From Nonlabens xiamenensis (GTDB lineage Bacteria > Bacteroidota > Bacteroidia > Flavobacteriales > Flavobacteriaceae), in contig NZ_RMVE01000001.1 in assembly GCF_003865345.1 (NCBI RefSeq), positions 186,001-250,000 on the forward strand: a stretch of 64,000 nucleotides of DNA, read 5' to 3'. Shown piece by piece: positions 1,715-63,848 of this stretch. Positions within the stretch are counted from its first letter, which is position 1; the number at the start of each line of letters is the position of its first letter. The notes under the pieces were generated by a model. The model ran no database searches, was not told where the DNA came from, and worked only from the letters and a program-made list of their open reading frames with translations. Both the position numbers and the translations under genes were made by a program.

Positions 1715-3463
1715 TTAGACTGTTAATTTAAGATTTAATTCTTTCAACTGTTCCTGATCAATAGGCGCAGGAGCGTCAATCATGACATCACGACCGCTAT
1801 TGTTCTTCGGGAATGCGATAAAGTCTCTAATCGTTTCCTGTCCACCCAGAATGGCAACCAATCGGTCAAATCCAAAAGCCAATCCGGCGTGTGGTGGCGC
1901 ACCGTATTCAAAAGCATCCATCAGGAATCCGAATTGAGCCCTGGCCTCTTCTTCAGTGAAGCCTAAATGGTCAAACATCAACGCCTGTAATTTTTTATCA
2001 AAAATTCGAACAGACCCTCCTCCTATTTCATTACCATTCATGACCAAGTCATAAGCATTGGCACGCACAGCTCCTGGGTCTGTAGATAGCTTTTCTACAT
2101 CTTCAGGTTTAGGTGAGGTAAAAGGATGGTGCATAGCGTGGTAACGTTGCGTCTCTTCATCCCATTCTAGCAATGGAAAATCCACTACCCATAAAGGAGC
2201 AAATTCGTCGGGATTTCTCAACCCTAGTCGTTCGGCCATTTCCATCCTTAGAGCGCTAAGTTGAGTTCTGGTGGTTTGCGCAGGACCTGACAATACACAA
2301 ATCAGATCTCCAGCTTTTGCACCGGTAGCTTCTGCCCATTGGGCCAGGTCTTCCTGATTGTAGAATTTGTCCACACTGGATTTATAACTTCCATCCTCGT
2401 TGCACTTCACGTAAACCATTCCCTTGGCACCTACTTGTGGTCGCTTGACCCAATCGATCAATTTATCGATTTCCTTTCTAGTCATGCTGGCGGCTCCAGG
2501 AACCGCAATTCCTACTACCAATTCAGCTTCATTAAAGATTTTGAAATCTCTCGCTTTCGCGAAAGCGGACAAATCTCCAAACTCCATCCCAAATCGAATG
2601 TCTGGTTTATCGTTACCATATTTTTCCATAGCTTCCTGATAGGTCATTCTCGGAAACGCATCTACTTGAACATTTTTAATTTTATCTAGCAGATGCCGGG
2701 TCATATCTTCAAAGATGTTGAGTACATCTTCTTGTTCTACAAACGACATTTCGCAGTCAATTTGCGTAAACTCTGGTTGTCTATCGGCCCGCAGGTCCTC
2801 ATCCCTAAAACACTTGACGATCTGAAAATATTTATCGAGGCCACCCACCATTAATAATTGTTTGAAAGTCTGTGGGGACTGGGGCAAGGCATAAAATTGA
2901 CCTTCATTCATTCTGGATGGTACCACAAAGTCTCGTGCACCTTCTGGAGTCGATTTAATCAGTACGGGAGTTTCAACTTCTACGAAATCACGACCAGCTA
3001 AAAAGTTACGTACTTCCATCGCAACCTGTGATCTAAAGATCAAGTTATCCCTTACTGGTTTTCTCCTGATGTCCAGGTATCTGTATTTCATACGTAATTC
3101 TTCACCGCCATCTGTGTGATCTTCTATCGTAAAAGGTGGTGTGAGGGAAGCACTCAATACCTTGAGTTCGCTCACCAAAATCTCAATGTCACCGGTGGGC
3201 ATATTGGGATTTTTGGATTCTCTCTCAATCACAGTTCCCTTTACCTGAATCACGTATTCTCTTCCCAGTTCTTGGGCTTGTTTCATTATACCGGTATCGG
3301 TGCGTTCTTCATCAAAGATCAATTGTGTAATCCCGTAACGATCTCTGAGGTCTACCCAAACCATAAAACCTTTATCCCGGCTTTTTTGGACCCATCCGGC
3401 CAGGCTAACTTCTTTATTGATATCGCTGGAGCGCAGGCTACCACAATCGTGAGATCTGTACAT
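1715..3463 (-). CDS. aspS: Aspartate--tRNA ligase
   Basis: Charges tRNA-Asp with aspartate. The 582-aa protein has the N-terminal OB-fold anticodon-binding domain ([19 protein letters not shown]), class II motif 2 ([16 protein letters not shown]), the bacterial GAD insertion, and motif 3 near the C-terminus ([15 protein letters not shown]). The frame is open 16 codons further upstream, but the start at 3463 ([11 protein letters not shown]) matches the family's N-terminus and is preferred. One copy of the 16-bp palindrome sits in the gene at 2552-2567 and encodes AFAKA in the insertion domain ([10 protein letters not shown]). Confidence 0.96.
2552..2567. repeat. 16-bp palindrome copy 1 (CGCTTTCGCGAAAGCG)
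   Basis: Perfect copy inside aspS, translated AFAKA. See the finding on the dispersed palindrome. Confidence 0.9.
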
Positions 3464-3645
3464 AATAACGAGTTGATTTTGAGCCTGCAAAAATAAGCCG
3501 AATTCGCTCAAAAAAGTTATTGATCAGCATAAGATTTAATCGAAAAAAAAAACAATGTTACCCTTTAGCGACAAAAATTAAAGTTCGTAACCACCTGTTT
3601 ATGTGCTTCTTATTGTCTCAATGTTAATTTAACGTTACCTGAATG

Positions 3646-3676
3646 TTGTGTAAATGTAATTTTATTGTTAACTTTG
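3646..3676 (+). promoter_or_regulatory. Bacteroidota-type promoter of the MORN-like gene
   Basis: TTG at 3646-3648 is followed after 20 bases by TAACTTTG at 3669-3676, a match to the Bacteroidota sigma-ABfr consensus (TTTG, about 19-21 bases, TAnnTTTG). It lies 18 bases upstream of the ATG at 3695. This is a sequence match only. Confidence 0.55.
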
Positions 3677-3694
3677 ATTATATAAAATCGGCAG

Positions 3695-4051
3695 ATGATG
3701 AAAGTATTAGTGATGGCAGCCATGATGATCGGAATGATCGCCACTGCCCAAGAGGTAAAACCACAATTTGAAAAAACAGATGATGGTCTGGTAAAGGCAA
3801 CCTATTTCCATGAGAATGGAAAAGTGTCTCAAACCGGAACCTTCCTCAATAACAAAAGACACGGTGAGTGGATCAGTTACGATACCGACGGTCAAAAAAC
3901 TGCGCAAGCAGCGTATTCTCACGATAGAAAAACTGGTAAATGGTTTTTCTGGAATGACGACCAACTCACTGAGGTAGATTACAGTGGAAATGCTATTGTA
4001 TCCGTCACCACCTGGGTTAATAAAGATCCGGTGGCTACCAACAAACCGTAG
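3695..4051 (+). CDS. Secreted MORN/YwqK-like repeat protein
   Basis: A 118-aa protein with a short signal peptide (MMKVLVMAAMMIGMIATAQ) and a body of two to three repeats of the type G-x-W-x-x-Y-x-x-x-G (GEWISYDTDGQ, GKWFFWNDDQ). These resemble the MORN-like units of proteins annotated as YwqK-type antitoxin components. No toxin partner is nearby, so the antitoxin label is probably only a family name here. It has its own promoter and terminator and therefore appears monocistronic. Cellular role unknown; export to the periplasm or cell surface is inferred. Confidence 0.8.
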   Translation: MMKVLVMAAMMIGMIATAQEVKPQFEKTDDGLVKATYFHENGKVSQTGTFLNNKRHGEWISYDTDGQKTAQAAYSHDRKTGKWFFWNDDQLTEVDYSGNAIVSVTTWVNKDPVATNKP

Positions 4052-4074
4052 TTCACGAGTCATTGTAATCTATG

Positions 4075-4112
4075 AAATTCCCTTTTCGTAATTAACGAAA
4101 AGGGAATTTTTT
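4075..4112 (+). terminator. Rho-independent terminator
   Basis: The inverted repeat AAATTCCCTTTTCGT / AACGAAAAGGGAATTT with a four-base loop is followed by a run of T. It lies 24 bases after the stop of the MORN-like gene. The stem is symmetric enough to act on either strand. Confidence 0.8.
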
Positions 4113-61790: not shown

Positions 61791-62066
61791 TTAGTCTGCC
61801 AAAACAATAGCTTTATTGTCCGTCATTTCCAACACTCCACCGGTGATTTGAAAATCAGTAGTCCCATCAACTTTTGTGAAACGAGCAGCGACGGCCTCGT
61901 CCAACTGGATATTTCCAAAGATCTTAACCGCTCCTTTAGTAAGTAAGGAAACCACAGGGGCGTGATTATCCAACATCTGGAACTGTCCGTTTACACCTGG
62001 AACCGATACAGACTCCACCTCACCGCTGAAAATGGTCATTTCTGGAGTAACGATTTCTAAAATCAT
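61791..62066 (-). CDS. atpC: ATP synthase F1 epsilon subunit (short form)
   Basis: A 91-aa protein, only the N-terminal beta-barrel of epsilon (MILEIVTPEMTIFSGEVESV; NGQFQMLDNHAPVVSLL). The C-terminal two-helix domain that can inhibit ATP hydrolysis in other bacteria (usual total about 130-140 aa) is absent; the gene stops cleanly at ADN-like end VLAD. Second gene after atpD on the minus strand, 72 bases downstream. Confidence 0.93.
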   Translation of the reverse strand: MILEIVTPEMTIFSGEVESVSVPGVNGQFQMLDNHAPVVSLLTKGAVKIFGNIQLDEAVAARFTKVDGTTDFQITGGVLEMTDNKAIVLAD

Positions 62067-62138
62067 AAATATGTTTTTAATGAATCTGCTTTAATCAAGA
62101 GCGCTTGGCCCCTTCATTCAGTTGGTATTGATGACGGA

Positions 62139-63650
62139 TTAAGCCTCAGAAAGCATTTTTTCTCCAGCCTCAATCGCTTCCTCGATGGTTCCTTTAAGGT
62201 TAAAGGCACTTTCAGGAAGGTGATCCAACTCTCCATCCATAATCATGTTAAATCCTTTGATGGTATCTTTAATATCTACCAACACCCCTTTCAAACCTGT
62301 AAACTGCTCGGCCACGTGGAATGGCTGAGAAAGGAAACGTTGTACACGTCTAGCGCGGCTTACGGCAAGCTTATCTTCTTCGGATAATTCTTCCATACCT
62401 AAGATGGCAATAATATCCTGCAACTCTTTATAACGCTGCAACAATTCCTTAACGCGCTGTGCACAGTTATAATGGTCTGCACCTAAAATATCGGCAGTAA
62501 GGATACGAGAAGTAGAGTCTAATGGATCTACCGCTGGATAAATACCCAATTCGGCAATTTTACGAGACAATACAGTAGTAGCATCCAGGTGGGCAAAAGT
62601 AGTTGCTGGTGCCGGGTCCGTAAGGTCATCGGCAGGTACATAAACAGCCTGTACCGAAGTAATGGAACCTTTTTTAGTGGAAGTAATACGCTCCTGCATG
62701 GCACCCATCTCAGTAGCCAATGTAGGTTGGTAACCTACCGCAGATGGCATACGACCCAACAAGGCAGATACTTCAGAACCAGCTTGTGTAAATCTAAAGA
62801 TATTATCTACAAAGAAAAGTACATCTTTTCCTTGTCCATCGCCAGCTCCATCACGGAAATACTCGGCAATAGTCAATCCAGAAAGTGCTACTCGAGCACG
62901 TGCTCCTGGCGGTTCATTCATCTGACCAAATACAAAAGTGGCCTTAGAATCCCTCATGACAGTTTTATCAACTTTTTTAAGATCCCAACCACCTTCTTCC
63001 ATGGAATGCATAAAGTCATCACCATATTTGATGATTCCAGACTCTAACATTTCACGTAATAAATCGTTTCCTTCACGGGTACGTTCACCCACACCGGCAA
63101 ATACCGAAAGTCCTCCGTGTCCCTTGGCGATGTTGTTGATTAATTCTTGAATCAATACCGTCTTACCTACACCTGCTCCACCAAAAAGTCCAATTTTACC
63201 CCCTTTGGCATAAGGCTCGATCAGATCAATTACTTTGATCCCTGTAAAAAGCACTTCGGTAGAAGTAGAAAGGTCCTCAAAGGCAGGTGCCTCACGGTGA
63301 ATAGGAAGTCCATCCTGACCAGCTTTAGGAAGGTCACCCAAACCATCAATCGCATCTCCAATCACGTTAAACAAACGACCATATACATCATCACCAATCG
63401 GCATCTGAATCGGGCTACCTGTGGCAGTTACCGCAGTACCACGGCTCAAACCGTCAGTAGAATCCATGGATATCGTCCTTACCGTGCTTTCTCCAATGTG
63501 GGACTGTACCTCAAGTACGAGCAGGGATCCATCCTCTCTTTTGATTTCTAGGGAATCATAAATTTTGGGAAGTGCGCCTTTTGCACTGTCAAATGTTACA
63601 TCTACCACCGGTCCGATGATCTGTGAAACGCTACCTGTAATCTGCGACAT
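62139..63650 (-). CDS. atpD: ATP synthase F1 beta subunit
   Basis: Catalytic subunit of the F-type ATP synthase. In the 503-aa protein Walker A is [12 protein letters not shown] near residue 160, the catalytic Glu is in [11 protein letters not shown] near 200, and Walker B is [16 protein letters not shown] near 270. Separated with atpC from the other atp genes, as is usual in Bacteroidota. Length is normal. Confidence 0.97.
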
Positions 63651-63708
63651 TGATATAATGTTTTAAAGCTTAAAAAGATACAGCTTTTGAGGGCTGTTTT
63701 TCGTGGCG

Positions 63709-63716
63709 CAAAGATA
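63709..63716 (-). promoter_or_regulatory. Candidate -7 element of atpDC
   Basis: TATCTTTG on the minus strand, 58 bases upstream of the atpD ATG. No good -33 partner is seen, so moderate support only. Confidence 0.4.
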
Positions 63717-63832
63717 CTGCATTCCTGTTTATAAAAACAGCGTGTTTTTTAATTTTTTTGGGAGATATAAATCCACCTGGATGAGTAAGACTTATAAAGT
63801 TTCATACCGTACTTTATCATAAAGGATAATCT

Positions 63833-63848
63833 CGCTTTCGCGAAAGCG
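63833..63848. repeat. 16-bp palindrome copy 12 (intergenic)
   Basis: Perfect copy in the 240-base gap between atpD and the partial gene at the window end. The gap otherwise holds the atpD promoter region and AT-rich sequence. Confidence 0.9.

Follow-up and report, generated by a model that had tools for sequence, protein, structure and literature searches.

A palindrome iterated at even spacing in Nonlabens and Dokdonia genomes and its candidate role as a self-DNA signal

Strongly over-represented DNA uptake sequences are, to our knowledge, known only from two proteobacterial families, and we know of no settled function for HIP1 (GCGATCGC), a highly iterated palindrome of cyanobacteria. PMC1939737 describes uptake sequences as evenly spaced and arising by point mutation, with 65% of copies in open reading frames (ORFs) in Haemophilus influenzae and 35% in Neisseria gonorrhoeae. 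Here we analyse a 16-bp palindrome, CGCTTTCGCGAAAGCG, that recurs in a 64,000-nucleotide stretch of the Nonlabens xiamenensis genome (the window; C5:186001-250000 of the genome that we denote G000) and that had been pointed out in an earlier note made from this sequence alone. Beyond what that note described, the palindrome is evenly spaced, carries extended arms, is abundant in three genera and occurs in islands elsewhere; we found no paper in the open-licence literature printing a 12-mer or longer of it or describing the motif in these genera, which is an absence from a search and not proof. Our preferred reading, to which we give a probability of about 40%, is a symmetric signal marking self-DNA, most probably one for uptake, that would have spread by molecular drive.

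Abundance and spacing

Twelve exact copies of the palindrome lie in the window, together with one copy carrying one mismatch and one carrying two (Table 1). All had been listed in the earlier note, one of them at 40573 instead of 40572, and they are indeed far above chance: 100 dinucleotide shuffles of the window held zero matches to CGCTTTCGCGAAAGCG, even when 2 mismatches were allowed. The note's density of about one per 5 kb is right for the window; across the whole genome (3,684,258 bases) there are 422 exact copies, one per 8.7 kb, still far above expectation, and 0 copies of the reversed sequence used as a control. Sampled stretches of the same genome totalling 263 kb, some picked as gaps and others as dense, contained 51 sites at ≤2 mismatches, or about 1 per 5 kb. 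Genome-wide statements here derive from pattern counts over genomes and from 20-kb stretches.

All 23 Nonlabens genomes hold between 362 and 897 copies each at ≤1 mismatch. When its 14-bp core, GCTTTCGCGAAAGC, was counted in 397 genomes of the family, it was abundant only in the 4 Nonlabens drawn (553-664 copies), in a Dokdonia genome (G227; 857) and in a genome of genus g190 (G190; 408); at least one copy occurs in 80 of the 397, and the highest count outside these three carrier genera is 19. Genomes G051 and G307 hold 17 and 19 copies of this core. The exact 16-mer matches 26 of 199 family genomes, with 422 and 495 copies in two Nonlabens, 153 in G190 and ≤12 in the others, and in an order-wide draw of 395 genomes other families never exceeded 2 copies. 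Among the 80 matches listed in a scan of named genomes, 67 are Nonlabens (including BBFL7) or Dokdonia, and the 13 others, ranging from Flavobacterium to Bradyrhizobium, have one copy each. At high abundance, the palindrome is restricted to Nonlabens, Dokdonia and g190, a marine lineage. No other iterated palindrome was found in 20 kb from each of 19 other genera, a screen blind to motifs rarer than about 1 per 7 kb.

A phylogeny of aspS gave no resolution, the gene being too conserved. In a ComEC tree of 20 rows, where G190 and two other rows form long branches, the carriers need two changes and a single origin is not rejected (p-AU 0.40); a single origin of the three carrier genera is compatible with this tree, which does not prove it.

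The sites repel each other and are more evenly spaced than chance. The first 100 of the 422 places in the window's genome include 0 gaps below 1.5 kb, where 16.4 are expected, and have a coefficient of variation (CV) of 0.60 against 0.99. For a second Nonlabens genome, G199, the 83 places listed on C4 as far as 448 kb give 3 short gaps against 20 expected; there the CV falls short of significance (0.89 against 0.98, P 0.18), since these places take in long stretches poor in sites. At ≤1 mismatch, none of 72 gaps in the 20-kb bat loci of 19 congeners is shorter than 2 kb, against 29.7 expected, these loci being orthologous and hence not independent; by the same measure, fetched stretches had 3 such gaps against 11.0 expected in G000 and 10 against 20.3 in G199, several of them having been selected, as gaps or as dense, with the site places known. 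Dokdonia has 2 gaps below 2 kb against 5.0 expected (P 0.05). Several long gaps between exact copies in G000 contain copies with one or two mismatches, and the site-poor stretch of G199 at C4:298-352 kb has three near-copies in the pieces fetched and one exact copy at 332468.

Close neighbours were also seen. Eleven sites (≤1 mismatch) crowd the 20 kb of the dense stretch G199:C4:80000-99999, a pair of them separated by 270 bp, and in the window the one-mismatch copy at the helicase start departs from the repulsion, with a perfect copy just 657 bp away.

Even spacing and repulsion would also suit a chromosome-organising site, at which a dimeric nucleoid, condensation or occlusion protein would bind every 3-8 kb; such a protein needs evenly spread anchors, and selection would act at the level of the cell. 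The existence of site-poor stretches, such as C4:298-352 kb of G199, speaks against this explanation, which we consider unlikely, although it is the main rival to uptake and bears on several of the results below.

Sites within genes and the extended element

Ten of the twelve perfect copies in the window lie within ORFs (the exceptions are at 5265 and 63833); they use all three phases and encode AFAKA, RFRES or LSRKR by frame, exactly as the earlier note had described. Nine of its gene names are consistent with Pfam; the 545-aa Bat protein has no Pfam match at E 1e-5. Selection or spread at the level of DNA, which the note had proposed from the use of three frames, is supported by codon usage among Nonlabens orthologues. 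At identical residues, the same codon is used more often inside the site than outside it in BatE (0.68 against 0.47), BatC (0.93 against 0.52) and the 545-aa protein (0.92 against 0.47), in a comparison by species pairs that are not independent, the species being related. With three frames in use and codons kept better inside sites than outside, selection at the protein level was rejected; the peptides change where the site is absent.

Sites arise by substitution at the three alignment columns examined, because orthologues without the site align there free of gaps. BatE has it at column 98 in 13 of 20 Nonlabens (≤2 mismatches), and the other 7 are gap-free at this column, with kin peptides (AFTKA, HFTKA, QFAKA etc.) written in different codons. 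BatC has it at column 203 in 18 of 20; the two without it, G215 and G216, show no gap at this column and each carry a second, in-frame copy nearby: exact, upstream and possibly in the leader in G215, downstream and with one mismatch in G216. At column 613 of the 545-aa gene, 2 exact copies and 16 with 1-2 mismatches occur among 20, the mismatches lying mostly at the outermost base. Chromosome organisation gains from these alignments in two ways: positions are common to Nonlabens in which the 545-aa protein has 47-68% identity to that of the window, and both species lacking the batC column have a nearby same-frame copy.

A mobile palindrome, akin to a repetitive extragenic palindrome or a miniature inverted-repeat transposable element and spread by many insertions, was among the possibilities raised in the earlier note. 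It would account for many identical copies, and for the third or so of Nonlabens sites (about 31%) that lie outside ORFs, but it is contradicted, and was rejected, at the three columns by gap-free orthologues with diverged codons; moreover, sites occur in all frames within conserved proteins, and their flanks have only position-specific preferences in common. Gap-aligned copies do exist in a fourth gene (window 43340-44095), where the copies of five genomes sit in parts of the frame absent from others; these parts are probably frame left open upstream of the true start, and they say little on insertion. We give this alternative practically no chance.

Sites are enriched outside ORFs, where 56 of 179 fall in Nonlabens and 33 of 67 in Dokdonia, compared with a non-coding share of roughly a tenth, the ORFs having been called by the same script and the named loci fetched for holding a site. 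Within the bat loci, 32 of 63 in-ORF sites lie no more than 30 codons into the called ORF. The batC copy, in the window and in congeners, lies in a hydrophobic, signal-peptide-like N-terminal stretch where AFAKA precedes Q, and the AFAKA reading (A-x-A) of the palindrome may suit such places. At window 18925-18946, the one-mismatch copy overlaps the beginning of the Lhr-type helicase ORF, at codons 3-8; the true start of this gene may be downstream.

Table 1 Copies of the palindrome in the 64-kb window
Positions	Strand	Copy	Location	Phase	Peptide	Pfam or conservation
2552..2567	.	perfect	aspS-like gene	2	SAFAKA	class II tRNA synthetase
5265..5280	.	perfect	between ORFs 4491-5174(+) and 5312-6676(+)			
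13926..13941	.	perfect	sucA-like gene	2	DAFAKA	2-oxoglutarate dehydrogenase E1
18931..18946	.	one mismatch	start of Lhr-type helicase ORF		RFRESE	
19588..19603	.	perfect	Lhr-type helicase	0	RFRESV	Pfam agrees
23829..23844	.	perfect	waaA-like KDO transferase	2	TAFAKA	Pfam agrees
27251..27266	.	two mismatches	ORF 25907-27460(-)			
34668..34683	.	perfect	batE-like TPR/SH3 gene			same column in 13/20 Nonlabens (≤2 mismatches)
37294..37309	.	perfect	batC-like TPR gene, N-terminal		AFAKA	same column in 18/20 Nonlabens (15 exact, 3 one-mismatch)
40572..40587	.	perfect	545-aa Bat gene	1	ALSRKR	same column in 18/20 Nonlabens
46347..46362	.	perfect	recX	1	SLSRKR	RecX
48667..48682	.	perfect	ketosynthase	0	RFRESG	Pfam agrees
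53556..53571	.	perfect	bioF-like class I/II aminotransferase	0	RFRESD	Pfam agrees
63833..63848	.	perfect	outside ORFs; longest open frame across site, 40 codons			

In 524 kb of Nonlabens DNA, we counted 90, 34, 10, 3 and 13 copies at 0 to 4 mismatches, against 0, 0, 0.15, 0.35 and 7.2 under a Markov null. The next classes gave 69 against 66.1 (5 mismatches), 492 against 422 (6) and 2380 against 2040 (7), and we put the excess at 6-7 mismatches down to the simplicity of the null. Half-site words outside the palindrome (GCTTTCGC) are near chance, with 2 found and 1.9 expected. This fall of the mismatch series to background, together with half-sites near expectation, indicates recognition of the palindrome as a whole, in a nearly all-or-none way. 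Avoidance of partial matches, as in a restriction or decoy model, was rejected, near-sites with 4-5 mismatches being near expectation. Outside sites, CGCG (669 against 894 expected) and GCGCTTTC (2 against 7.0) are low, and TCGCGA is not clearly enriched (81 against 72.7). Among Nonlabens sites with 1-2 mismatches, 49 of 74 mismatched half-positions are the outermost base.

Base composition beside the core differs from background as far out as about -15 to -18 in 178 distinct sites of Nonlabens and 73 of Dokdonia, a set from which exact 40-bp duplicates alone were removed, so that orthologous sites are counted repeatedly. T is preferred at -2, -3 (T or G in Dokdonia), -6, -9 and -12, with G tolerated, and C falls to 1-6% at 7 (Nonlabens) or 6 (Dokdonia) of the 10 positions from -3 to -12. 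These preferences hold in strictly intergenic DNA (86 flanks) and are less full in the three coding phases (34, 36 and 91 sites); wobble positions could contribute to the apparent 3-bp step in phase 2. Extension of a hairpin or cruciform stem was rejected, since the arms of one site do not covary. Judged by these base preferences, the element in Nonlabens and Dokdonia spans about 46 bp, its nearly invariant core of 16 bp being flanked by symmetric arms that reach about ±15 bp further.

Total information is 30.4 bits in G000, 35.9 in G199, 39.2 in the bat loci of 19 congeners (related rows), 31.2 in Dokdonia and 25.4 in G190, for sites chosen at ≤3 mismatches, a cut that raises the share of the core and at which the null is low. 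The observed density needs 11.5-12.3 bits. Such an excess (25-39 against about 12 bits) fits biased spread. A symmetric site of about 46 bp is what a chromosome-organising protein could use, but that explanation would have to hold hundreds of weakly selected sites above the required information.

The arms also raise the possibility of a bidirectional, Chi-like recombination hotspot, that is, a palindrome read from either side whose T/G-rich 5' arm on each strand would favour RecA loading. On each strand the 5' arm is indeed rich in T and G and poor in C, there is one site per several kb, and the two phages described below lack it; Chi has a similar density, RecA prefers GT-rich DNA, and its triplet binding could explain the apparent 3-bp step. 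However, half-sites (GCTTTCGC) are near chance, whereas a one-direction Chi should by our reasoning enrich them, and the 16-bp core is far longer than known Chi sites, which have 5-8 nt. We place this explanation third and think it improbable.

Candidate roles and machinery

We favour an uptake signal because the palindrome resembles uptake sequences in being abundant, evenly spaced, of substitution origin and enriched in non-coding DNA, with graded near-matches and excess information, the last of these being a feature that we infer for them. The palindrome would be the core of a symmetric DNA recognition element, read as double-stranded DNA most likely by a homodimeric or symmetric protein. 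The element would mark the lineage's own DNA, and fragments bearing a copy would be preferentially taken up or recombined in; through point substitutions, better matches would then spread by molecular drive, and an additional copy less than about 2 kb away would bring no gain, which would yield even spacing. With only slightly lower odds, the palindrome might represent a third, independently evolved and pilus-independent self-DNA system, in Bacteroidota, with a 46-bp signal and a dimeric reader, spread by drive in three genera and tagging exported genes.

Several points weigh against uptake. We know of no competence in Nonlabens or Dokdonia. Even spacing, information excess and absence from phages are also compatible with an intracellular role, and in G190 repulsion is weak (4 gaps below 2 kb against 5.9 expected, not significant) and the arms add only 0.7 bits. 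PF00437, the motor ATPase of type IV pili and type II secretion systems, scored above cut-off in 2 of 13 Nonlabens (G000 and G199), in neither Dokdonia G227 nor G190, and in 4 of 15 non-carriers, in a test that covered, of the ComP/PilQ/PilB/PilT system, the motor ATPase alone. With the motor gene missing in most carriers, they do not share the apparatus that recognises known uptake sequences, and uptake in most of them would have to do without such a motor. All 30 genomes tested, the 15 non-carriers included, have ComEC, which is thus uninformative, and the profile tests made found no reader protein. Known uptake sequences, as described in PMC1939737, are not palindromic.

As a parallel, PMC7965970 reports that Riemerella columbina favours its own DNA in transformation, with a functional motif not established there and candidate words that are A/T-rich and have 7-10 letters only. 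The PF00437 gene is accessory in Nonlabens; the piece that holds it in G199 (C4:332500-352400) is without the palindrome, and the one in G000 (C12:8000-27999) has two exact copies.

Further profile tests bear on two of the rivals. G190, G227 and 11 of 13 Nonlabens each have a single PF02195 protein, and no extra ParB/Noc-like protein of this family is common to the carriers, other DNA-binding families not having been tested; this counts against chromosome organisation. The other rival is a by-product of a DNA methyltransferase and biased repair, as in the likeness to HIP1 drawn by the earlier note. The core is indeed GC-rich and palindromic, with CGCG and TCGCGA in it, and in PMC4390886 the abundance of cyanobacterial HIPs is tied to cognate methyltransferases. 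PF00145 is absent, however, from 6 of 13 Nonlabens (G000 included) and from G190, PF01555 is absent from 4 of 13 and from G227, and G207 and G208 lack both; no methyltransferase common to the carriers was found in these two families, Type I, D12 and other families not having been searched. TCGCGA is not clearly enriched outside sites, and repulsion and wide arms are left unexplained by methylation. The likeness is therefore weaker than proposed, holding for the highly iterated palindrome itself, and we regard such a by-product as very unlikely.

In other genera, listed copies are often clustered, with recurring intervals of 933 and about 2446 bp. We fetched twelve stretches (L124-L135) from seven such flavobacterial genera (G076, G078, G087, G101, G111, G144 and G012); ten, at least one per genus, are alike over pieces >400 bp, with 71-98% DNA identity to each other, and L126 and L133 have no listed match to the other island stretches. 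Five of six scanned proteins of L127 are two P-type metal ATPases, a CusA-like RND pump, an outer-membrane efflux protein and a multicopper oxidase. The twelve stretches hold 30 exact copies, of which 22 are at places common to several stretches (groups of 6, 5, 4, 3, 2 and 2) and 8 are not. Horizontal import is likely for the shared copies alone; most simply, these copper-resistance islands would have come from the palindrome lineage, and the palindrome may serve as a tracer of horizontal gene transfer for DNA exported by the Nonlabens/Dokdonia lineage. Copies of GCTTTCGCGAAAGC listed in G144, G042 and G657, all of other genera, number 6-9 per genome and are scattered over several contigs.

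Two Nonlabens phages have 0 sites in 70.7 kb, their best match carrying 4 mismatches, and a scan of a viral collection returned 41 stretches with an exact copy.

Comparison with described systems

Sites of parS and Noc are, like the palindrome, 16-bp palindromes with TTTC...GAAA half-sites; here, in contrast, there are hundreds of sites genome-wide, with another half-site spacing and no extra ParB-like protein common to carriers. Chi sites of RecBCD and AddAB share with it a frequency of one per several kb and a short exact motif inside genes. The palindrome differs from them in being palindromic and long and in having half-sites that are not enriched, and for want of that enrichment it was not assigned to the Chi class.

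HIP1 and the alternate HIPs of cyanobacteria are likewise highly iterated GC-rich palindromes, as described in PMC4390886. The palindrome, at 16 bp rather than 8, has wide arms, strong repulsion and no common PF00145/PF01555 methyltransferase, and it was not assigned to this class, for which the methyltransferase test covered those two families.

The uptake signal sequence (USS) of Pasteurellaceae has T-rich extended flanks. Neither it nor the DNA uptake sequence (DUS) of Neisseriaceae provides a class for the palindrome, which is not asymmetric and whose carriers mostly lack the pilus motor. A comparable iterated signal in another phylum, with 23 congeners, clear presence or absence by genus, a measured recognition width and a measurable repulsion distance, makes the drivers of iterated genome motifs directly testable. 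Like USS and DUS as described in PMC1939737, the palindrome has hundreds of copies, which are evenly spaced, arise by point substitution, come with graded near-matches and are enriched in non-coding DNA, and, like the USS of H. influenzae, it has most of its Nonlabens copies within genes; it differs in its palindromic 16-bp core, its symmetric arms and lack of orientation, the absence of a type IV pilus motor from most tested carriers, and its occurrence in an unrelated phylum.

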